A stretch of 13,213 bases of DNA from an uncultured Tidjanibacter sp. Its GTDB lineage: Bacteria; Bacteroidota; Bacteroidia; Bacteroidales; Rikenellaceae. The notes under the pieces are model-generated. The model worked only from the letters and a program-made list of their open reading frames with translations, searched no databases and was not told where the DNA came from. Positions 1-13,213 of this stretch are shown piece after piece. Numbering within the stretch: position 1 is the stretch's first letter; the number at the start of each line of letters is the position of its first letter. Position numbers and translations under genes: made by a program. The stretch covers positions 1 to 13,213 of the forward strand of contig CAKUKW010000034.1 of NCBI GenBank assembly GCA_934663885.1, read 5' to 3'.

Positions 1-45
1 TGCCTTCAGATGCAGCCTTAATGTGATGTCGGCTGGTGGAGGACA

Positions 46-138
46 GTTATCTCCTTCCGTTTGTCAGCGCTATTTCTTCGCAATAACAAGCGGGCTCCGG
101 TCGATCCTTTCGATTCGCGATTCACGCGAATCTCGGGT
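46..138 (-). repeat. Divergent third copy of the hydG-flanking intergenic repeat family
   Basis: Read on the minus strand, this stretch has the same ordered blocks as the two repeats around hydG: ACCCGAG, then a hairpin, then CGAAAGGATCGACCGGAGCC, then, after an insertion, GGAAGGAGATAAC. The hairpin here is GATTCGCG (112-119) paired with CGCGAATC (125-132), an 8-bp perfect stem with a 5-base loop. Its sequence is unrelated to the GTTTGC/GCAGAC stem of the other copies, yet it sits in the same place. The copy carries about 30 extra bases before the last block. I see no reading frame here that I would defend. Relationship to the other copies is inferred from shared blocks, not from a full alignment. 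Confidence 0.6.
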
Positions 139-153
139 GGTAGCCGCCACTTT

Positions 154-330: not shown

Positions 331-509
331 TGCCAAATCGCATTTATCGCCGCTTCAACGTGTACCTCTTAGATCCCAATGCGGTATCTATAAATAGAGT
401 TACTTTCCTACCCTTTATCTGCACCGCCACCTTCATGGGCGGCCACTGACAGGCTCCTTATGCTGACCTTCGGTCTTCCTCCTCGCGGCTCGCCAGAAAT
501 CACGCAAGC

Positions 510-600
510 TTGGTCTGCCTCGCCCCGCAGCGTCGGTTCAGTCCTTTCGATTTGGGATAAGAGACCAAAAGCTCAGGTGCCCTAATGGGACGCACCTGAG
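510..600 (-). other. Two adjacent hairpins, possible structured RNA related to the repeat family
   Basis: TTGGTCT (510-516) pairs with AGACCAA (562-568). Immediately beside it CTCAGGTGC (572-580) pairs perfectly with GCACCTGAG (592-600). Inside the first stem, the minus strand reads ATCGAAAGGACTGAACCGACGC (530-551), which shares its first ten bases and part of the rest with the ATCGAAAGGATCGACCGG block of the 46-138 repeat. The similarity is short, so common origin is only a suggestion. Confidence 0.35.
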
Positions 601-1426: not shown

Positions 1427-1828
1427 TTATAATATATTTCTCGATACAGTATATCCCACGACTATGGCCAGGGCAATCCATGCTGCCGTTGCTCCGTAAA
1501 GGTTTTTCCGTAGCCATGCGGCCCAGGTATATCTGGGTGAGAAAATATCGACAAATAATCCCAGTAACAGATAGGGTATGCAGATCACCAGCAATGGATT
1601 TACCACCCACGCGGCGCCTATATCGCCGTGAAGGAGGCTGTGTACCGCCCTCTGAGAACCGCATCCGGGGCATTGCCATCCCGTGACCGCCAGAAAAGGG
1701 CACCGCGGAAAAAAAGGCATCTCTCCGGGGTCGTATACGAAATATAATACTGCCCCTCCGCCTATCAGCAAAGGCAACAGTATATATAAAAATATCTTTC
1801 TTCCCGTCAGCCTACCAGAATAACGCAC
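1427..1828 (-). CDS. DUF2752 family membrane protein
   Basis: The protein has 133 residues and three or four hydrophobic segments (about 12-32, 77-94 and 112-128). Between the first two lies the cysteine-rich signature of DUF2752: Cys43 in RCPF, then GWQCPGCGSQRAVHSLLHGD with Cys53 and Cys56. The cysteines could bind a metal or form disulphides, but no function is established for the family. The start is a GTG at 1826-1828; the next in-frame Met (residue 36) would remove the first membrane segment, so GTG is preferred. Its first 17 bases overlap the end of the zinc-ribbon/CD225 gene, so the two are probably translated together from one transcript. This pair (DUF2752 with CD225) often occurs together in Bacteroidota genomes, which suggests a shared membrane role. 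Confidence 0.85.
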   Translation of the reverse strand: MRYSGRLTGRKIFLYILLPLLIGGGAVLYFVYDPGEMPFFPRCPFLAVTGWQCPGCGSQRAVHSLLHGDIGAAWVVNPLLVICIPYLLLGLFVDIFSPRYTWAAWLRKNLYGATAAWIALAIVVGYTVSRNIL

Positions 1829-2228
1829 CTGCTATTCCTATCGAGTAAAGTATCCCGTAGATAAGGCCTACCGCGAGGCCGGTTATCAGCGCTACGTTGA
1901 ACCATGTCTGGGCTTTCTGCGAGAGCCTGTAAGCCTCATCCACGTCGCCGCGGTTATATGCGGAATCGACCTGGGCGGCAAAGACAATGCTCACGATGCC
2001 GAAGATCTGGCAGCAGAAAATGGTCACCAGTATGGCTCCTACGAGATGGTTTTTGGGGCGCGGACGTTCGGTACGCCTGTCGTTGCAGACGGGCTCTTTG
2101 GAGTATCCCGCATCCGCTTTCGGCGGGTTGGGGTTATTGACCAGGTATTCTCCGCAGTAGCGGCATTTGACAGCGTCGGCGGGAACCGTGGATTTACAGT
2201 AAGGACATTTGGTTTCGAGTATTTCCAT
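1812..2228 (-). CDS. Zinc-ribbon and CD225/dispanin domain membrane protein
   Basis: This 138-residue protein opens with a zinc ribbon (Cys8, Cys11, Cys22, Cys25 in KCPYCK and KCRYCG). A polar linker of about 30 residues follows, then a CD225 domain: PKNHLVGAILVTIFCCQI (58-75), a conserved loop with Ala-Tyr-Asn-Arg-Gly-Asp (90-95) and a second hydrophobic segment (about 110-136). CD225 proteins are two-pass or re-entrant membrane proteins, known in animals as IFITM; their bacterial role is not established. The ribbon probably faces the cytoplasm. The ATG at 2226-2228 precedes the first cysteine pair and gives a complete ribbon. The downstream DUF2752 gene overlaps its end. A near-consensus -7 element (TATACTTG) lies just upstream but is weak. 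Confidence 0.88.
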   Translation of the reverse strand: MEILETKCPYCKSTVPADAVKCRYCGEYLVNNPNPPKADAGYSKEPVCNDRRTERPRPKNHLVGAILVTIFCCQIFGIVSIVFAAQVDSAYNRGDVDEAYRLSQKAQTWFNVALITGLAVGLIYGILYSIGIAGALFW

Positions 2229-5382: not shown

Positions 5383-6420
5383 ATGATGGAACTGGTCGAC
5401 AGGCTCGAACACGACAGGCGTCTGGAAAGGGAAGAGTACAAACTCCTGCTCTCTGCATACGATACCCCTCTGCTGGATTATATCAACGCCAGGGCCAGGG
5501 CCGTCGCGCAGTCCCATTTCGGCACTGGTATCTACATCCGCGGCCTTATAGAGGTAACGAACTATTGTCGAAACGACTGCTATTACTGCGGTATACGCAA
5601 GAGCAACCTTAACGTGCACAGGTACCGGCTTTCAAAGGAACAGGTGCTCGAATGCTGCCGTGAAGGCAATCTTCTGGGCTTTAAAACGTTTGTATTACAG
5701 GGAGGGGAAGACGCCGGAATAAGCGACAAGGCCATCGAGGATATGGTCAGGGCCATCCGCACCGAATTCCCCGGCAATGCCATAACGCTGTCGCTCGGCG
5801 AGAGGAGCGGGGAGGCCTATCAAAGGTTTTTCGACGCGGGCGCTAACCGCTACCTCCTGCGGCACGAAACCGCCGACAGGGAGCATTACGGAAAGCTGCA
5901 TCCCGCCTCGATGTCGTTCGACCGCCGAATGGAATCCCTCCGTACGCTGCGCGAGATAGGGTTCCAGACCGGAACGGGAATGATGGTAGGCAGCCCCTGG
6001 CAAACGATTGACAACATTACGGACGATATATTGTTCATAGAGGAATTTAAACCCCAGATGATAGGACTGGGCCCCTATATACCCCAGAGCGACACCCCTT
6101 TCGCCGGCAAACCGGCCGGGAGTCCGGAGTTGTCGCTGATGCTTCTCTCCATTTTCAGGCTTATGTTTCCCGCAGCCCTTATTCCATCTACGACCTCTCT
6201 GGCCTCCGTGACCGACGACGGCCGCGAGCGAGGAATACTGGCCGGCGCGAACGTGGTGATGCCCAACCTTTCGCCCCCGGAATTCAGGGAGTGGTACGCC
6301 CTCTACAACAACAAAAGATCTTTCGGCAGCGAAGCCGCAGAAGGAGTGAAAACACTGGAAAAACAACTCTCCGCAATAGGGTACCATATATCCTACGACC
6401 GCGGTGACTATAAAGGATGA
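5383..6420 (+). CDS. hydE: [FeFe]-hydrogenase maturase HydE, radical SAM enzyme
   Basis: HydE is one of three maturases that build the two-iron part of the H-cluster; it acts on an iron-cysteine intermediate supplied by HydG on the route to the dithiomethylamine bridge. The 345-residue protein has the radical-SAM cluster motif CRNDCYYC (Cys62, Cys66, Cys69), QGGED (106-110), SLGER (137-141), RHETA (160-164) and MVGSPWQT (201-208), all characteristic of HydE and its close relatives. The C-terminal third has no cysteine, so the optional second cluster seen in some HydE proteins is absent. Adjacent ATGs at 5383 and 5386 cannot be told apart; the first is given. hydG and hydF follow, which settles the choice against BioB or PylB relatives. 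It has its own promoter with a Rex-like operator, and is divergent from the metal unit. Confidence 0.95.
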   Translation: MMELVDRLEHDRRLEREEYKLLLSAYDTPLLDYINARARAVAQSHFGTGIYIRGLIEVTNYCRNDCYYCGIRKSNLNVHRYRLSKEQVLECCREGNLLGFKTFVLQGGEDAGISDKAIEDMVRAIRTEFPGNAITLSLGERSGEAYQRFFDAGANRYLLRHETADREHYGKLHPASMSFDRRMESLRTLREIGFQTGTGMMVGSPWQTIDNITDDILFIEEFKPQMIGLGPYIPQSDTPFAGKPAGSPELSLMLLSIFRLMFPAALIPSTTSLASVTDDGRERGILAGANVVMPNLSPPEFREWYALYNNKRSFGSEAAEGVKTLEKQLSAIGYHISYDRGDYKG

Positions 6421-6451
6421 AATGTAAAATGATGTATAAGAGATATATTTC

Positions 6452-6552
6452 TGTTCTTTCTTGTAAGACCCGAGGTTTGCTGCAAGGCAGACGAGAGGAT
6501 CGACCGAGGCCTTTTGGCGGAGGGAGATAACATTAGAACCAAAGAACTTTCC
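6452..6552 (+). repeat. Intergenic repeat copy A, upstream of hydG
   Basis: This copy matches the inverted copy at 8069-8167: 50 of 51 bases at the left end, 23 of 25 at the right end, with a variable middle of 25 versus 23 bases. A 39-base stretch (6464-6502) is identical. It contains the hairpin GTTTGC (6475-6480)/GCAGAC (6487-6492). Near its ends GTTCTTT (6453-6459) and AAAGAAC (6541-6547) form 7-bp terminal inverted repeats, so it resembles a miniature transposable or repetitive extragenic element. It has no coding content. Confidence 0.85.
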
Positions 6553-6576
6553 TGGTTCTCTTTTACAAAAGAGAAC
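6535..6576 (+). promoter_or_regulatory. Overlapping alternative hairpins ahead of hydG
   Basis: GTTCTCTTTT and AAAAGAGAAC (6555-6576) form a nearly perfect palindrome with a 2-base centre. Its left arm overlaps TGGTTCT (6553-6559), which can instead pair with AGAACCA (6535-6541) at the end of repeat copy A. The two helices exclude each other, as in attenuators. No T-tract follows, so this would be an mRNA-processing or stability structure rather than a classical terminator. Confidence 0.4.
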
Positions 6577-6611
6577 AAATAGCTTTAAAATATCATATTA
6601 AAAACCATAAT

Positions 6612-8030
6612 ATGTACGATGTAAAATCTAAAGTCGCCGAGGAGTTCATCGACGACGGCGAGATAAAAAGCACGATGGAGTATGCGAGGGCGAACAAAAG
6701 CAACCGCTCTCTCATCGAATCGCTGCTTGCTAAGGCGGCCGAGGGCAAGGGCCTTACCCACAGGGAAGCGGCTGTGCTCGTGGAGAGCGACCAGAAGGAT
6801 CTGAACGAACGGACGTTCGCCCTTGCGAGGCAGATAAAGGAGAGGATATACGGCAACCGTATAGTGATGTTCGCGCCGCTTTACCTCTCGAACTATTGCG
6901 TGAACGGCTGTACGTACTGTCCGTTCCATGCGCTTAACAAAACCATGCCGCGTAAGAAACTTTCCCAAAAGGAGATCGAGCAGGAAGTAATAGCGCTCCA
7001 GGATATGGGGCATAAGAGGCTCGCTTTGGAGTCGGGCGAAGACCCCCGAAACACGCCTATTGAATATATACTGGAGAGTATAGACACGATATATAACGTC
7101 AGGCACAAGAACGGCGCTATCAGGCGTGTGAACGTCAATATTGCCGCCACCACCGTAGATAATTACCGTAAGCTGCACGACGCCGGGATCGGAACCTATA
7201 TCCTGTTCCAGGAGACCTACAACAAGGAGAACTACCAGAAACTACATCCTTATGGGCCCAAGAGCAACTATGCGTGGCATACGGAAGCAATGGACCGGGC
7301 CATGGAGGGTGGCATCGACGACGTGGGGCTGGGGGTGCTTTACGGCCTGACCAACTACCTTTACGACTTTATCGGCCTGCTGATGCACGCCGAGCACCTG
7401 GAGGCCGTTTTCGGGGTCGGTCCGCATACTGTGAGCGTGCCGAGGATTTGCCCCGCAGACGATATAGACGTTAACGATTTCGAGAATGCCCTTCCCGACG
7501 ATATTTTTGAAAAAATAATCGCCGTCATACGCCTGGCAGTACCTTATGCGGGTATGATAATATCTACCCGCGAGTCGCAGAAGATGCGCGAACGTGCGTT
7601 GGAGCTCGGCGTTTCGCAGATCAGCGGCGGCTCGCACACGAGCGTCGGCGGATACGAGCACGAAGTGGAGGAAACCGACGAAACGGCGCAGTTCGACGTC
7701 AGTGACCGCCGCACCCTCGACCAGGTGGTCTCGTGGCTGCTCGACTTGGGTTACATCCCCAGTTTCTGTACCGCCTGCTACCGCGAAGGACGTACCGGAG
7801 ACCGTTTTATGTCGCTGGCCAAGAGCGGCCAGATCGTAAACGTCTGTGGCCCGAACGCGCTGATGACCCTGAACGAATACCTCGAGGATTACGCTTCACC
7901 CGGGACCAAGTTGAAAGGGAAGAAAATGATCTGGGAGGAGATGGCCAGGGTGCCCAACGAAAAGATACGCGAGCGTGCGCTCAAAAACCTGGAGGCTATC
8001 GACAGCGGCGAACGCGACTTCCGTTTCTGA
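6612..8030 (+). CDS. hydG: [FeFe]-hydrogenase maturase HydG, tyrosine lyase (radical SAM)
   Basis: HydG cleaves tyrosine to p-cresol and makes the CO and cyanide ligands of the H-cluster, delivering them as an iron-cysteine synthon. The 472-residue protein has the radical-SAM motif CVNGCTYC (Cys96, Cys100, Cys103), ESGED (141-145) and, decisively, the C-terminal CX2CX22C motif (Cys386, Cys389, Cys412) that holds the auxiliary cluster. That motif separates HydG from ThiH and HydE. The length is normal and the N-terminus (MYDVKSKVAEEFIDDGEI) matches the family, which supports the ATG at 6612. No Shine-Dalgarno is present. The gene is separated from hydE by 191 bases and from hydF by 148, and both gaps are filled by inverted copies of one repeat, an unusual setting for consecutive genes of one pathway. 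Confidence 0.97.
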   Translation: MYDVKSKVAEEFIDDGEIKSTMEYARANKSNRSLIESLLAKAAEGKGLTHREAAVLVESDQKDLNERTFALARQIKERIYGNRIVMFAPLYLSNYCVNGCTYCPFHALNKTMPRKKLSQKEIEQEVIALQDMGHKRLALESGEDPRNTPIEYILESIDTIYNVRHKNGAIRRVNVNIAATTVDNYRKLHDAGIGTYILFQETYNKENYQKLHPYGPKSNYAWHTEAMDRAMEGGIDDVGLGVLYGLTNYLYDFIGLLMHAEHLEAVFGVGPHTVSVPRICPADDIDVNDFENALPDDIFEKIIAVIRLAVPYAGMIISTRESQKMRERALELGVSQISGGSHTSVGGYEHEVEETDETAQFDVSDRRTLDQVVSWLLDLGYIPSFCTACYREGRTGDRFMSLAKSGQIVNVCGPNALMTLNEYLEDYASPGTKLKGKKMIWEEMARVPNEKIRERALKNLEAIDSGERDFRF

Positions 8031-8050
8031 CGAACGGGTCAGGTAATTAT

Positions 8051-8067
8051 GAGATACCAAGTATCTC
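8051..8067. repeat. Short perfect hairpin between hydG and repeat copy B
   Basis: GAGATAC (8051-8057) and GTATCTC (8061-8067) pair around CAA. It stands 20 bases past the hydG stop and abuts repeat copy B on its hydG-facing side, the mirror position of the hairpin at 6555-6576. No T-tract follows on either strand, so it is not a good terminator. Confidence 0.55.
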
Positions 8068-8068
8068 C

Positions 8069-8167
8069 GGAAACTTCTTTGGTTCTAAAGTTATTTCCCT
8101 TCGCATAAGCTCCCGCCGATCCTCTCGTCTGCCTTGCAGCAAACCTCGGGTCTTATAAGAAAGAACA
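8069..8167 (-). repeat. Intergenic repeat copy B, inverted relative to copy A
   Basis: On the minus strand this is the partner of 6452-6552, sharing 39 consecutive identical bases (8117-8155), the same GTTTGC/GCAGAC hairpin and a nearly identical right end. The terminal GTTCTTT is kept but its partner here is AAAGAAG, one base off. It ends 11 bases before the hydF start codon, so it could affect hydF translation or transcription. Confidence 0.85.
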
Positions 8168-8178
8168 CGAATAATTAC

Positions 8179-9390
8179 ATGAAAATTAATACACGACCGG
8201 CCATGCAGAACACACCGAGGGCAAACAGGGTTCATATAGGGATTTTCGGGCCTGCGAACAGCGGCAAGTCGTCGCTGGTAAACGCGATTACGGGGCAGAG
8301 GGTGTCGATAGTTTCCGACGTCGCGGGAACTACCACCGATCCTGTCAATAAGAGTATGGAGGTGCAGGGCATCGGCGCTGTCACGTTCATAGATACCGCG
8401 GGATTCGACGATACGGGAAACATCGGCGCCCAGCGCGTGGAACAGACCGTCCGCGCCGCCGACCGTACTGATGTGGCGCTTGTACTATGCGAAGAGGGCA
8501 GCCTCGCGGAGGAGTCGCACTGGATAGATATGTTCCGCTCGAAGAGGGTTCCGGTCATCGCCGTGATAAACAAAAGCGACATGCTGGCTGATCCAGCCGC
8601 CCTTGCCGCGCGCGTGGAAAATAAAACCGGACTGAGACCCATAGTGGTCAGCGCCGTTACGGGCGATGGTATCCCCGGACTTGTTAAGGCTATAGCGGAG
8701 GTAGCACAGGCAGAAAATCCCGACTCAATCGTAGGTACTCTTGCCTCCCAGGGCGACGTTGTAATGCTGGTGATGCCGCAGGACTCACAGGCTCCCCGCG
8801 GCAGGCTTATCCTCCCGCAGGTACAGACCATACGCGACCTGCTCGACAAAAAATGCGTGGTCGTGGGTTGCACTCCCGACCAGATGGAGACTGCTCTGAA
8901 GTCCCTTGCGGCCCCCCCGAAACTTATTATCACGGATTCGCAGGTCTTCGGCCCCGTCAGCAAGCTGACCCCCACGGAAAGTATGCTCACCTCTTTTTCA
9001 GTCCTTTTCGCACGTTACAAAGGGGACATAAAGGCGTTCGTGGAAGGGGCTTCCGCGATAGACGCGCTGACCGAGAACTCGCGGGTGCTTATCGCCGAGG
9101 CGTGCACCCATGCTCCGCTCGATGAAGATATAGGCCGGGAAAAAATACCGCGCATGCTGCGGGCAAAAGCCGGACAGGGCCTGGAAGTGGACGTAGTGGG
9201 AGGCTCCGATTTTCCCGACGACCTCACCGGCTACGACCTTATTATTCACTGCGGTGCGTGTATGTTCAACCGCCGACATGTACTTTCGCGCGTCGCCCGC
9301 GCCGCCGGGCAGGGAGTTCCCATAACCAATTACGGCATCGCGATAGCCTACCTTACATCCATTCTGGACAAAGTGGTCTACCCGGACTGA
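8179..9390 (+). CDS. hydF: [FeFe]-hydrogenase maturase HydF, GTPase and cluster carrier
   Basis: HydF is the scaffold on which the two-iron subcluster is completed and from which it is passed to apo-hydrogenase. With the ATG at 8179 the protein has 403 residues. The N-terminal GTPase domain shows the P-loop GPANSGKSS (24-32), then DTAGFDD and NKSD. A middle dimerisation region follows, and the C-terminal domain has the cluster ligands Cys309-x-His311 and His357-Cys358-x-x-Cys361 (HCGAC), the normal HydF pattern. The open frame continues upstream to 8134 but that extension lies mostly in repeat copy B and reads as accidental sequence. The ATG at 8203 is a second possible start, still before the P-loop. 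It ends the maturase trio; 167 bases separate it from the signalling cassette. Confidence 0.96.
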   Translation: MKINTRPAMQNTPRANRVHIGIFGPANSGKSSLVNAITGQRVSIVSDVAGTTTDPVNKSMEVQGIGAVTFIDTAGFDDTGNIGAQRVEQTVRAADRTDVALVLCEEGSLAEESHWIDMFRSKRVPVIAVINKSDMLADPAALAARVENKTGLRPIVVSAVTGDGIPGLVKAIAEVAQAENPDSIVGTLASQGDVVMLVMPQDSQAPRGRLILPQVQTIRDLLDKKCVVVGCTPDQMETALKSLAAPPKLIITDSQVFGPVSKLTPTESMLTSFSVLFARYKGDIKAFVEGASAIDALTENSRVLIAEACTHAPLDEDIGREKIPRMLRAKAGQGLEVDVVGGSDFPDDLTGYDLIIHCGACMFNRRHVLSRVARAAGQGVPITNYGIAIAYLTSILDKVVYPD

Positions 9391-9557: not shown

Positions 9558-9902
9558 ATGGATATTAAAACGATCATGGAGCTCACGGGCGCGAAATGCG
9601 TCAGCGGAGATCCGGACAACCCCATGAAGATCCGCTACGGATTCGCGTGCGACCTTATGAGCGACGTACTTACGCTCGATGCGGAGGAATTGCTTCTTAT
9701 TACCGGCCTTTGCAATCCTCAGACCATCCGCACGGCTGAAATGTCGGACTTGAAGTGCATCCTGTTCGTGCGAAATAAGAAAGTGACGGAGGAGATGATG
9801 GAGCTGGCCGAAGACAACGGAATAGTGTTGCTCGAATCGCCCTACTCGATGTTCCGCGCGGTAGGCGAGCTGGCCAAGGCCGGTATAGAACCTATATTTT
9901 AG
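9558..9902 (+). CDS. DRTGG-domain protein (first of two)
   Basis: This 114-residue cytoplasmic protein consists of one DRTGG domain, a small alpha/beta fold found in regulatory parts of phosphotransacetylases and CBS-type pyrophosphatases and as stand-alone proteins near hydrogenases. The marks are GFACDLMSDVLT (28-39), a central beta strand ELLLITGL (44-51), the segment CILFVRNKKVTEEMMELAEDNG (67-88) and the ending SMFRAVGEL (97-105). It is a diverged paralogue of the second DRTGG gene at 11757, with the same order of motifs. Ligand and partner are unknown; a small-molecule sensing role is inferred. The next gene starts 23 bases on, so it belongs to the cassette transcript. No ribosome-binding sequence is visible. 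It may be the first gene of a subtranscript, since a 167-base gap precedes it, but I see no promoter consensus there. Confidence 0.82.
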   Translation: MDIKTIMELTGAKCVSGDPDNPMKIRYGFACDLMSDVLTLDAEELLLITGLCNPQTIRTAEMSDLKCILFVRNKKVTEEMMELAEDNGIVLLESPYSMFRAVGELAKAGIEPIF

Positions 9903-9925
9903 AAACAGAGCCCTAATGATAATAA

Positions 9926-10351
9926 ATGAAGGTAAATTATGATATAGAGGGAGGGGATTTTACCCGTGCCGGTTTCGCTTCGAGCGAGGTAAAAAAGCTC
10001 CTCAAGCAGCTTTCGGTAGATCCGCCGATTGTGAAGAGGATCGTCATAGCCCTTTACGAGGCGGAGGTCAACGTCGTCGCACACGCTTACAGCGGCAACA
10101 TCGAGATGGAGATCGACCCCGATAAGATCACTATAGTGATAGCCGACCGCGGTCCAGGTATACCCGACATAAGTAAAGCTATGGAAATGGGGTATTCGAC
10201 CGCCTCGCAGCAGGTGCGCGAGATGGGTTTCGGCGCCGGTATGGGGCTGCCCAACATTAAGAAAAACGTGGATGAGCTCGATATAGACAGTACGGTGGGA
10301 GTCGGTACCACGGTTCGTATGACCACTTACTTCGCCCCGCAGGCGTCCTGA
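9926..10351 (+). CDS. RsbW-type ATP-binding protein (anti-sigma/serine kinase fold)
   Basis: A 141-residue stand-alone GHKL ATPase domain like the anti-sigma-factor kinases RsbW and SpoIIAB. The N box is ALYEAEVNVVAHAY (42-55, Glu45 and Asn49), the G1 box DRGPGI (74-79) and the G2 box GFGAGMGLP (101-109). There is no dimerisation or phospho-acceptor histidine, so it probably phosphorylates a partner on serine or threonine, or acts as a binding switch. No sigma factor or STAS anti-anti-sigma is encoded nearby, so the target may be one of the cassette proteins; this is inference. It sits between the first DRTGG gene and the sensory hydrogenase with gaps of 23 and 39 bases. Length matches the family. 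Confidence 0.87.
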   Translation: MKVNYDIEGGDFTRAGFASSEVKKLLKQLSVDPPIVKRIVIALYEAEVNVVAHAYSGNIEMEIDPDKITIVIADRGPGIPDISKAMEMGYSTASQQVREMGFGAGMGLPNIKKNVDELDIDSTVGVGTTVRMTTYFAPQAS

Positions 10352-10390
10352 CCTCCTCCAAAATAATTATATAGATTAACCGAACCTAAT

Positions 10391-11767
10391 ATGCCCGGGA
10401 AAAACACGAATTTCTACCACGCACTCAAGATAGACCCCGCCGTTTGTGTGGGGTGTACGCATTGCGTGATAGACTGTCCTACCGGGGCGTTGCGCATCAG
10501 GGAAGGCAAGGCCGTGTTGAGCCATCCCAACTGGTGTGTGGATTGCGGCGAGTGCCTCAAGGTGTGTCCTGTGAACGCCATATCGGTTCAGCAGAACGAT
10601 TTCGACAGGATATTCGATTTCCCCTGCCGGGTCGCGCTGGTTCCGGCGCTTTTCTTCGGGCAGTTTCCCGAGACCAACAGCGAACAGGATATATTCGCCG
10701 CCCTTTTCGAGCTCGGGTTCACCCATATTTACGAGGTTGAGTCCGTGGTAGAGCCGGTTAGGGAGCAGATGGCGCTCGATATAGCGGCCGCCGAAGACAA
10801 GCCGGCGATCAGTTCCTACTGTCCTGCGATCGTGAGGCTCATACAGATCCGCTTCCCCGATTTGGTTGATAATATTCTCAATGTCAAGCCTCCTATAGAA
10901 GCCGCCGCGACGCTTTATCGCGACCAGCTCCGAAAGGAGGGATATTCGGACGGGGAGATAGGAATGTTCTACGTTACCCCTTGCGCCGCTAAGATAGCCT
11001 CACTCAAAACGGGGAAAGAATACGCTTCGCTTATAAACGGGGTGTTGAACATGGACTTTATGTACAACAGGGTTTCCCATATCCTGCACAACAAACAGGA
11101 GGTGTTACCGCAACATTATAAAAAATTCGTTCCGACGCTCTCCTGCGCGGAGATGAGTTGGAGCCTTACGGCAGGCGAAGCAGACGGTTTTAAAGGACGC
11201 TGCTTCGCGGTAGACGAGATACATAACGTTACGGAATTCATCGAGCGGATGGAAATGACGGGTGAACTGGATAATATAGATTTCCTGGAACTCAGGGCGT
11301 GCGACCGCGGCTGCGTGGGCGGTGCGCTAACTCCCGCAAACCGTTTCCTGGCTGCCGAGAGGCTCCATAAACGCTCACTTGCCCATCCCCAGGAAACAGA
11401 GCTTTATAAAAATATCGATCCCGACTGCCTCGTCAGGCTGAAGGAAGATATCCATAATGAAAAATTCCTGCCTGTCGCCAAACTTATCTACGAGGGGGGA
11501 ATGGTGGAAGTGCTGAGGAAGATGGACAGGGTTAAGCAACTTGCCGGCTACCTTCCGGGTATAGATTGTGGCTCACCGGGATGCCAGAGCCTTGCCGAAG
11601 ATATTGTCAGGGGAGAGGCGGCTTTCAGCAACTGCGTATTCATGCAGCGCGAAATGATCCGCCGCGGTAAGATGAAATCAGAAAAAGGGGCCGACATCCT
11701 CAATACCGTATGGGGGAAAGACAGGTTTAAACTGAATTTAAATAAAGACAAAGATAATGAAACTTAA
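10391..11767 (+). CDS. Divergent (sensory-type) [FeFe]-hydrogenase-like iron-sulphur protein
   Basis: The 458-residue protein has two N-terminal [4Fe-4S] ferredoxin motifs (Cys19/22/25/29 and Cys49/52/55/59), then the [FeFe]-hydrogenase large-subunit domain. All four H-cluster cysteines are present: Cys144 (SSYCP), Cys198 (VTPCAAK), and Cys304 and Cys308 (RACDRGC). The surroundings differ from catalytic enzymes: the proton-relay cysteine (TSCCP in classical enzymes) is Tyr143, and the usual methionines before the second and third motifs are Thr196 and Arg302. Such changes mark the slow 'HydS' group C/D proteins thought to sense H2 or redox state. No PAS domain is present, so group D is favoured. 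A C-terminal segment GIDCGSPGCQSLAEDIVRGE (390-409) plus Cys415 resembles a further cluster domain with only three cysteines. Its end overlaps the next gene by 11 bases, implying coupled translation. HydE, HydF and HydG upstream could mature it. Confidence 0.9.
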   Translation: MPGKNTNFYHALKIDPAVCVGCTHCVIDCPTGALRIREGKAVLSHPNWCVDCGECLKVCPVNAISVQQNDFDRIFDFPCRVALVPALFFGQFPETNSEQDIFAALFELGFTHIYEVESVVEPVREQMALDIAAAEDKPAISSYCPAIVRLIQIRFPDLVDNILNVKPPIEAAATLYRDQLRKEGYSDGEIGMFYVTPCAAKIASLKTGKEYASLINGVLNMDFMYNRVSHILHNKQEVLPQHYKKFVPTLSCAEMSWSLTAGEADGFKGRCFAVDEIHNVTEFIERMEMTGELDNIDFLELRACDRGCVGGALTPANRFLAAERLHKRSLAHPQETELYKNIDPDCLVRLKEDIHNEKFLPVAKLIYEGGMVEVLRKMDRVKQLAGYLPGIDCGSPGCQSLAEDIVRGEAAFSNCVFMQREMIRRGKMKSEKGADILNTVWGKDRFKLNLNKDKDNET

Positions 11768-12089
11768 TGATTTGGTAAGCGTGCTCGAGCTGACGGTACT
11801 CAGCGAGGGAGCCGATCCCGGCCGTGAAATCACAGGCGGCTATACTTCCGACCTGCTCAGCGACGTGATGGGCAATATAGACGAGGGTATGGTATGGATC
11901 ACCCTGCAGGTACACCGCAATACCATAGCCGTTGCATCCCTGAAAGAGGTCTCCGCCGTAATTCTCATAAACGGCGTGAAGCCCGACCAAGACACTCTGG
12001 AACAGGCACAGGGCGAGGGCGTCTGCATACTTTCGACGGATATGTCCGCATTCGAAACCTCGGGCCGCATATATGAATTATTGAAATAG
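11757..12089 (+). CDS. DRTGG-domain protein (second of two)
   Basis: A 110-residue single DRTGG domain. The motifs GYTSDLLSDVMGN (28-40), WITLQVHRNTIAVASLKEV (47-65) and the ending MSAFETSGRIYELL (96-109) are typical of the hydrogenase-associated form, more so than in the paralogue at 9558. Its ATG lies inside the end of the sensory hydrogenase gene (11-base overlap), which usually means coupled translation and often a physical partnership in fixed ratio. It is probably a small cytoplasmic ligand-binding or protein-binding module; the domain also occurs in phosphotransacetylase, so a link to acetyl phosphate or nucleotide level is conceivable but not shown. No membrane segment or signal. Confidence 0.87.
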   Translation: MKLNDLVSVLELTVLSEGADPGREITGGYTSDLLSDVMGNIDEGMVWITLQVHRNTIAVASLKEVSAVILINGVKPDQDTLEQAQGEGVCILSTDMSAFETSGRIYELLK

Positions 12090-12113
12090 GTATTTTGCCG
12101 GTTTCCGGCGCAT

Positions 12114-12119
12114 AGGAGG
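12114..12119 (+). promoter_or_regulatory. Strong Shine-Dalgarno sequence before the PHP gene
   Basis: AGGAGG lies 9 bases before the ATG at 12129. None of the other genes in this window has such a site, in keeping with Bacteroidota habit, so this one stands out. A small GCCGG-TTT-CCGGC hairpin (12097-12109) sits just before it. The site supports the chosen start. Confidence 0.55.
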
Positions 12120-12128
12120 TTCGCGGCA

Positions 12129-12884
12129 ATGAACAGGTATCTGGTAGACCTGCATATACATACCCTGCTTTCACCTTGCGGCGACCTCGATATGAGCCCG
12201 GAGGTGATAGTGGATTATGCGCTGAAGGCAGGGCTGGATGCCATCGCCGTATGCGACCACAATACTACTTTGCAGGTAGCTACCGTAAGGGCCGTGGGCG
12301 AGCGTATGGGGCTGCGGGTTTTCTGGGGCGTAGAGCTTACCACCCGTGAGGAGGCTCATTGTGTGGCTATCCTGCCGGACGGGGAAGCCGCGGCAAAACT
12401 GCAGGAATGGATCGACGCCAATATTATGAAGATCCCGAACGTTCCGGAAAAATCCGGTGATCAGATATGGGTCGACGAAGAGGAGAATATCGGCGGGGAG
12501 GTCGAATGGTACCTTAATTCCGCCATAGACAAAAGCGTTGAAGAGATAGCGGATAAGGTGAAAGGGCTCGGTGGCCTTTTCGTTCCGGCGCATGTCGACA
12601 GGGGGGCCAACAGCCTTATAGGACAACTGGGATTCATTTCGCCAATGCTTCCCGTGAATGCCGTGGAATACAACTTCAAGGACAAGATAGACGCGATGAA
12701 GGGCAAGGGACATAAATACCTCGAGAAGTACTCGCTCTATACTGCATCCGACGCCCATTTCCCGAATCTTATCGGCACCAATCCCTCTTGGCTCTATGCC
12801 GAAACGCGCAGTTTCGAAGAGTTGCGCAAAGCTTTCGCGCAGGAAGGGGGAAGGCGGATAGTAAGCAGGCTGGAAGAAAAATAG
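12129..12884 (+). CDS. PHP-domain phosphoesterase
   Basis: A 251-residue PHP-family metal-dependent phosphoesterase. The expected metal ligands are all present in order: DLHIHT (His9, His11), CDHN (Asp43, His44), GVELTT (Glu69), His77 (EAHCVAI), PAHVDR (His155) and SDAH (Asp208, His210). The family includes phosphatases for nucleotides, histidinol phosphate and phosphoproteins. In the hydrogenase cassettes of Clostridia and Thermotogae a similar PHP protein accompanies a kinase-like protein, so removal of a phosphate from a protein partner is a reasonable guess, not shown. The insert between residues 100 and 140 (acidic, DEEENIGGEVEWY) is typical of this subgroup. It is preceded by a strong ribosome-binding site and lies 39 bases after the second DRTGG gene; the next gene is 131 bases on. 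Confidence 0.9.
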   Translation: MNRYLVDLHIHTLLSPCGDLDMSPEVIVDYALKAGLDAIAVCDHNTTLQVATVRAVGERMGLRVFWGVELTTREEAHCVAILPDGEAAAKLQEWIDANIMKIPNVPEKSGDQIWVDEEENIGGEVEWYLNSAIDKSVEEIADKVKGLGGLFVPAHVDRGANSLIGQLGFISPMLPVNAVEYNFKDKIDAMKGKGHKYLEKYSLYTASDAHFPNLIGTNPSWLYAETRSFEELRKAFAQEGGRRIVSRLEEK

Positions 12885-12982
12885 ATAGAGATTGAAGGAA
12901 CTTAAAGATTTGAAGATGAAAATTTTAAATAGGGGGATAAGGAAAAATGCCGGCTTCGAATCGTCATTCGGGATATCTGTTA

Positions 12983-13006
12983 AGGATTTCCGGATCTTTA
13001 AATCCT
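12983..13006. repeat. Hairpin ahead of the last ATP-binding gene
   Basis: AGGATTT (12983-12989) and AAATCCT (13000-13006) pair around a 10-base loop, ending 9 bases before the ATG at 13016. A smaller CGAAT/ATTCG hairpin precedes it (12957-12970). They might modulate entry into the last gene; without a T-tract neither is a clear terminator. Confidence 0.35.
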
Positions 13007-13015
13007 AATATTGTA

Positions 13016-13213
13016 ATGAAAGACATATCGTTCCATATAACAGACGTAACGGAAAATTGTATCCGGGCCGGGGCTTCCGAAATGAGGCTCGGCCTGAAAC
13101 TCGAAGGACAGAAGCTGGAGCTGACCATTGAAGACAACGGCTGCGGTATGAGCGAAGAGACAATACTGAAGGCCACAAATCCATTCTATACTACACGCAC
13201 GACAAGGAAAGTG
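13016..13213 (+). CDS. GHKL ATP-binding (histidine-kinase-like) protein, 3' part beyond window
   Basis: The first 66 residues of an open frame that runs off the window. It has the N box of a small class of histidine-kinase-like ATPases (VTENCIRAGA, 11-20), the G1 box DNGCGM (40-45) and NPFYTTRTTRKV (55-66), the segment leading into the ATP lid, where the family continues to a GLGL box. Proteins starting like this, about 180 residues long, follow PHP and DRTGG genes in hydrogenase clusters. It is a stand-alone ATPase without a sensor domain in the part seen. The ATG at 13016 is chosen because the family starts within a few residues of it (MKDISFHI). Together with the gene at 9926 it gives the cassette two separate kinase-like domains. 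Confidence 0.85.
   Translation, partial: MKDISFHITDVTENCIRAGASEMRLGLKLEGQKLELTIEDNGCGMSEETILKATNPFYTTRTTRKV

Follow-up and report, generated by a model that had tools for sequence, protein, structure and literature searches.

The window, that is the whole stretch of 13,213 nucleotides analysed here, comes from an uncultured Tidjanibacter sp. and contains hydE, hydG and hydF in this order on the plus strand (Table 1). The three genes exceed the NCBIfam cut-offs, with nearly the whole models covered. An earlier reading of this DNA (hereafter the original prediction) had proposed that hydG is the only gene between a pair of inverted repeats. This is the case: NCBIfam matches place hydE before the first copy and hydF after the second. 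Among the inverted repeats listed for the window, the arms on either side of hydG are the two longest, followed by one of 29 nt at 72%. When 6452-6552 was compared with the reverse complement of 8069-8167 in a single alignment, we observed 13 differences over 101 columns and a longest identical run of 39 bases (6464-6502 and 8117-8155), which agrees with the pair as originally described; a blastn comparison of the two copies within the window gave an E value of 2.75e-30. The 39-base run is long if the differences are evenly spread (P 0.014), and it could result from conversion between both copies or from constraint.

Table 1. Genes of the hyd locus, inverted arms and parts of the two repeat copies in the window.
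Feature	Position	Strand	Remarks
hydE	5383..6420	+	NCBIfam TIGR03956, 522.6 bits
Inverted arm pair 1	6446-6502/8117-8173		57 nt, 95% complementary
Inverted arm pair 2	6517-6552/8069-8104		36 nt, 89%
Copy 1, left-end hairpin H1, 5' part (GTTCTTTCTTGTAAGA)	6453..6468	+	same left end in relatives
Copy 1, module A within H1	6469..6534	+	66 nt; CCCGAG-hairpin-CGAGAGGATCGACC-hairpin-GGAGGGAGATAAC type
Copy 1, AGAACCAAAGAACTTTCC: H1 3' arm and start of base stem	6535..6552	+	left-end pattern AAGAACCAAAGAACTTT
Copy 1, right-end hairpin H4 (GTTCTCTTTTACAAAAGAGAAC)	6555..6576	+	first hairpin of the original prediction; H4 pattern in relatives
hydG	6612..8030	+	NCBIfam TIGR03955 (HydG), 872.1 bits, end-to-end profile match
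GTAATTAT, flanking copy 2	8043..8050	.	palindromic with 8171-8178, 8-bp pair read from sequence
Copy 2, inner hairpin GAGATACTTGGTATCTC	8051..8067	-	second hairpin of the original prediction; stem also in relatives
Copy 2, AGAACCAAAGAAGTTTCC	8069..8086	-	
Copy 2, module A within H1	8087..8150	-	64 nt
Copy 2, left-end hairpin H1, 5' part (GTTCTTTCTTATAAGA)	8151..8166	-	
ATAATTAC, palindromic partner of 8043-8050	8171..8178	.	directly 5' of hydF start codon
hydF	8179..9390	+	NCBIfam TIGR03918, 527.3 bits

Each repeat was also said to carry, facing hydG, a hairpin of unrelated sequence. Both hairpins exist and they differ from each other, but they are not unrelated add-ons, the first one being the right-end hairpin H4 and the second one an inner hairpin of a single element family. 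Better bounds are thus 6453-6576 for copy 1 and 8051-8166 for copy 2 (8166-8051 on the minus strand). Copy 1 consists of H1 with module A, the base-stem arm and H4, and has no inner part. Copy 2 consists of H1 with module A, the base-stem arm and one inner hairpin, and has no right end (H4); the stem of its inner hairpin (GAGATACTGCGTATCTC) adjoins H1 or H4 in relatives, there with a different loop. Copy 1 begins 32 nt past the stop codon of hydE, at a distance often seen in the repeat family. A small hairpin, CTGAC-GAACGG-GTCAG at 8027-8042, overlaps the hydG stop codon and adjoins copy 2.

Other features were seen in the rest of the window. A 17-nt inverted repeat with a 29-nt loop lies at 268-330, in a stretch without a clear gene. 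The protein encoded at 1812-2228 (minus) combines a zinc-ribbon-like start (below cut-off) with a CD225 domain (78 bits), and its gene adjoins that of a DUF2752 protein. The genes at 9558-13213 include a weak HPr-kinase-N match, a DRTGG protein and the start of a HATPase; an anti-sigma-like ATPase, an iron-hydrogenase-like protein and a PHP-type hydrolase were also matched there, below the NCBIfam cut-offs. They may form a hydrogenase-linked signalling set.

We then looked for the repeat in relatives. Judged by HydG, the nearest named relative is Candidatus Tidjanibacter gallistercoris (L001), with 80% identity, and the sample comprised the 268 genomes of its family group. A search of the Candidatus Tidjanibacter gallistercoris genome with the repeat gave no match, and no full-length match to the window repeat was present among the few candidates scored per genome in the 268 genomes. 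A scan was also made with the pattern AGAACCAAAGAASTTTCC; it is no independent test of the pair, since this pattern was built from both window copies. Several genomes of the family group carry both repeat ends directly adjacent, so the approximately 65 nt lying between them in the window are an added module.

The left-end motif AAGAACCAAAGAACTTT, with at most one mismatch, was found at 57 places in 12 of the 268 genomes (up to 14 places per genome), against 2 places for the reversed control; part of the 57 may be chance matches. One of them, in G255, has no left-end hairpin and was left out, and the surroundings of the other 56 were analysed. A right end was recognised within about 700 bases in 31 of these 56 elements; in some of the remaining 25 it went unrecognised because the right hairpin differs in sequence. 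The H4 pattern was present in 8 of 42 genomes, which were chosen and not random, with 0 control places. A full element in relatives measures approximately 170-330 bp and is arranged as H1, then a base stem CCAAAGAACTTTT/AAAAGTTTTCTGG enclosing H2, a long stem and H3, then H4. The termini are thus hairpins together with an imperfect base stem; the long stem is specific to each copy, and further modules can sit within the hairpins. The elements printed fold at -84 to -100 kcal/mol. They are mostly intergenic: with gene calls based on codon usage, only one of 56 (L368) shares more than 40 bases with a called gene; with a cruder list of open reading frames, 17 of 56 overlapped one to some extent. 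At one locus, L346 (G217:C120), two left ends lie in opposite orientation about 150 bases apart.

Outside the family group, an order-wide search found the left-end motif in 25 of 295 genomes and the control in 33, so that such matches are at chance level there, with the exception of G323, a genome of this wider sample with eight left-end matches, two of them exact. Rfam, searched with the window at E values up to 5, gave four matches, all far below the curated score and none over the repeats. Phage and plasmid records did not match window 6440-6600, and viral contigs matched neither the 27-base core nor a left-end pattern exactly.

In most of the relatives' elements printed, H1 has no insert and closes, for instance, as GTTCTTTCTTGTAAGAAAGAAC. 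In both window copies, by comparison, the module of about 65 nt (module A) sits at the same place within this left-end hairpin. Module A was recognised in the window alone, at three places, against none in 200 shuffles. The third place, at about 44-140 (minus), is in the gene-poor start of the window, and there the hairpin sequences differ yet pair. The 31-mer core with up to 3 mismatches was found in 0 of the 268 family-group genomes, and the copy-specific pattern of the H1-module junction in 0 of 433 loci. A looser module A pattern gave 20 places in 16 of the 268 genomes, which we rejected, as by their letters alone they look like chance matches in coding sequence. A second module (B, of the form CCGACGC-hairpin-GAGGAGGAA and variants) was matched at 12 distinct sites when 60 loci and the window are taken together: ten in or near element hairpins as judged by eye, one in the window, and one, in L354, that resembles coding sequence. 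The window site is a module B-like AACCGACGC..GAGGAGGAA at 472-543 (minus), of the kind seen within the hairpins of relatives' elements. From their common linkers, modules A and B may be related.

The hyd locus itself was examined in 89 loci, 87 of which gave a hydG match. HydE was detected directly upstream of hydG in 43, hydF directly downstream in 40 and both in 30; many loci end close to hydG, so a missing neighbour there means little. The spacers hydE-hydG and hydG-hydF measure 191 and 148 nt in the window and, as extrapolated from tblastn, 60 and 39 in L001, 54 and 31 in L171, 65 and 44 in L172, 669 and 39 in L173, 124 and 20 in L174, 65 and 22 in L175, 180 and 289 in L176, and 73 and about 0 in L177. 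The eight corresponding genomes (G001, G250, G229, G230, G248, G247, G005 and G179) lack the left-end motif, so relatives with the hydE-hydG-hydF order and without this end of the repeat do exist. Since L173, L174 and L176 have long spacers without the motif, spacer length alone is not diagnostic. A blastn comparison of the repeats with 80 loci from the HydG search yielded two short matches only, one of 20 and one of 15 bases.

Taken together, we consider that the pair flanking hydG very probably represents two insertions of one non-coding, hairpin-rich, MITE/REP-like family of intergenic repeats. Among the origins that the original prediction had listed, this is the one that the data support: the family is dispersed and mostly intergenic, and the eight relatives with the same gene order are devoid of the left-end motif. 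One reduced copy would have entered the hydE-hydG spacer and another, inverted, the hydG-hydF spacer, both belonging to a sub-type that carries module A within H1. The two copies would have arrived as separate events, moved by some enzyme acting in trans, and template switching would keep the hairpins paired and flip the inner part. In that case it would be a coincidence that the copies bracket hydG and face inward. The 13 differing columns out of 101 argue against a recent duplication. Several findings count against two insertions: the module A sub-type was not found among the 268 genomes of relatives, copy 2 is without H4 and copy 1 without the inner part, and neither a mobilising gene nor a target-site duplication was identified. 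We use the term MITE/REP-like for the behaviour of the family and claim no named MITE family, because transposon-matching ends and target duplications are not established.

The position of the elements relative to genes was determined with simple codon-usage gene calls. Of the full elements, 30 could be classified (one that overlapped a called gene was left unclassed), and 17 of these lie between convergent gene ends. Among the other neighbouring pairs of these loci, which were not matched for spacer length, 19 of 156 are convergent (Fisher P 4.5e-7). The 25 elements in which no right end was recognised do not enter the P value; 15 of them were classifiable, and 4 of these were convergent. This bias, together with the strong folds of the printed elements, could suggest that the elements are structures useful to the host, either two-way transcription ends or protectors of mRNA 3' ends, and are kept for this role. 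The minus strand of copy 1 has a terminator-like match (6559-6535), which points the same way. However, the convergent bias would equally arise if insertions at other places were selected against, the elements without a found right end are convergent in so few cases, and the bias itself depends on home-made gene calls and unmatched comparison pairs. In addition, no T run follows H4 of copy 1, and the window copies sit within a row of genes on the same strand. We therefore regard a host role as unlikely.

A second alternative, which we consider quite improbable, gives the pair itself a function. The copies would pair in a hydE-hydG-hydF transcript, an RNase III-type enzyme would excise the hydG mRNA, and the ratio of the maturases would shift. 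Precursors of rRNA have the same stalk geometry and are cut by RNase III. The original prediction that the ends of the hydG mRNA could pair is favoured energetically by the computed fold, the co-transcription of the three genes being its premise. Indeed, the predicted duplex reaches -169 kcal/mol, whereas the two copies give -42 and -26 when each is folded by itself. When window 6401-8200 is folded at minimum energy, copy 1 has 94 bases paired with copy 2, and this fold is 121 kcal/mol better than one with pairing limited to 400 nt. The copies could thus form a duplex of about 95 bp around hydG if the three genes share one mRNA. Such energies are nevertheless expected for any inverted pair of equal length (no control was folded), local hairpins form first, and the single transcript is an assumption. 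A promoter-like match (6562-6591, 10/12) also begins inside H4; the stretch has four promoter-like and four terminator-like matches where 1.6 and 1.8 are expected, so both kinds are near background and too weak to use. The arrangement is not known to be kept in any relative, so there is no sign of selection.

The original prediction had further envisaged an invertible segment that would switch off H-cluster assembly. Recombination between the repeats would then flip hydG in a fraction of the population. The near-identical inverted arms (the 57-nt pair with its 39-nt run) are suited to it, this run might have been left by an exchange between both copies, and inner cassettes of the same element family occur in both orientations. 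The relatives do not support it: in none of the 87 hydG loci was hydE or hydF detected on the opposite strand, although these loci are not known to carry the repeats and so cannot show hydG switching as such. Furthermore, no recombinase was present among the 15 window proteins scanned (10 by NCBIfam; the 5 others and 2 of the ten by Pfam), one of which had no match at all, and the flips that we observed concern the inner part of about 120 nt of one element and not a 1.6-kb gene between two elements. Such a switch is very improbable. Finally, it is hardly credible that hydG was captured or moved as a cassette lying between two mobile elements of this kind: hydG stands alone between the copies and is somewhat closer to the six nearest relatives (79-80% identity) than hydE (66-69%) and hydF (65-68%) are, but order and strand are conserved in relatives without the left-end motif, the GC content of hydG (0.550) is close to that of its neighbours (0.552 for hydE, 0.578 for hydF), and the same offset in the more distant L176 and L177 (69 for hydG, against 54-56 and 62-63 for hydE and hydF) leads us to read the higher similarity as slower evolution of hydG.

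Returning to two insertions of a dispersed repeat as the preferred reading, the hydG feature itself is ordinary and it is the repeat family that is of interest. Its flanks are mostly locus-specific palindromes. With 45-base flanks, the left flank pairs better with its own right flank than with any of the 30 other right flanks in 17 of 31 elements, and the own flank ranks third or better in 25 of 31, such pairing being absent in 6; the 31 cases are not independent, since elements of one genome share sequence. The long stems differ between copies yet remain paired. In two genomes, with 10 and 11 elements, the arms show 84% and 83% pairing with their own partner, against 41% and 48% on average with the partners of other copies, single cross pairs reaching 90% and 93% because some copies share stems.

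The inner part was found in both orientations. In G213, six elements have it one way and four the opposite way; three opposite pairs scored 67, 83 and 78 when inverted, against 32, 52 and 25 when direct, and a same-way control pair scored 98 direct against 59 inverted, palindromic content raising both scores. The same was observed between two species at an orthologous site, L338 (G263) and L349 (G266), where the ends align directly (32/34 and 33/36) and the score of the inner part is 39 when inverted and 12 when direct, with shuffled sequence reaching 5.5 at most. Stem, flank and inner-part orientation all differ between these two elements. At both, the outer palindrome tracks the adjacent gene's 3' coding end, and the two arms of the palindrome have changed together, the frame being judged by eye. 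An empty site corresponding to L338 was sought in 36 genomes; among the matches listed, G266 alone keeps both neighbours together, and its site is also filled.

A broader picture can be drawn from these features, which as a whole is rather unlikely. A family of nested hairpins would colonise hairpin loops, the elements settling in palindromes at gene ends and the modules in the elements' own hairpins; template switching would rewrite the stems as well as the palindromes around the element, even into the 3' end of the adjacent gene, and flip the inner part; and at hydG, two inward-facing elements would wrap the message of this gene in a duplex of about 95 bp, changing the supply of H-cluster maturases. 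Known template switching, taken by itself, could explain much of what is seen in the family.

A suspected switch of a hydrogenase gene is thus replaced by a dispersed repeat, which guards against over-reading a bracket of this kind. The family also offers a natural test set of bacterial palindromes that stay paired as their sequence changes. With the terms used in one open-access library, we found no paper on such repeats in Alistipes, Rikenellaceae or Bacteroidetes; a paper on a repeat of P. gingivalis (PMC5771137) was returned.

The part of the review PMC10969869 used here treats several bacterial MITEs, Correia, Chunjie and BOX/RUP/SPRITE, and describes MITEs inserted into one another and one within an operon, a precedent for the insertions proposed here. 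Like MITEs, the repeat family is short and non-coding, with several dispersed, mostly intergenic copies and stable hairpins, and among these MITEs, BOX, RUP and SPRITE insert into one another (PMC10969869). Unlike the MITEs presented there, it has no established terminal inverted repeat matching a transposon and no established target duplication, and it ends in hairpins with palindromic flanks. The host of BrickBuilt, Porphyromonas gingivalis, belongs to the Bacteroidales. This MITE is described, in the part of PMC4596501 used here, with 19 copies in one strain, intergenic and modular; the repeat family resembles it in being intergenic and modular, with up to 14 left-end places in one genome. 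BrickBuilt, however, has a core of 23-nt tandem repeats and IS5-like ends (PMC4596501), where our elements have a copy-specific long stem and hairpin ends.

Template switching at quasipalindromes is reported to invert spacers and homogenise arms (PMC8604942, PMC8794818). The stems that stay paired though changed and the flipped inner part of the relatives' elements are what such switching would give. The spacer flips in the part of PMC8604942 used here concern a few bases in yeast, and their extension to an inner part of the size seen here is one that we infer. As to position, the family places palindromic units at gene 3' ends, as illustrated by the full elements lying between convergent genes. 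Enterobacterial REP/BIME elements likewise consist of palindromic units and lie at the 3' ends of genes and between convergent ones, where they are landing sites for other insertions. Their architecture differs from that of the family described here.
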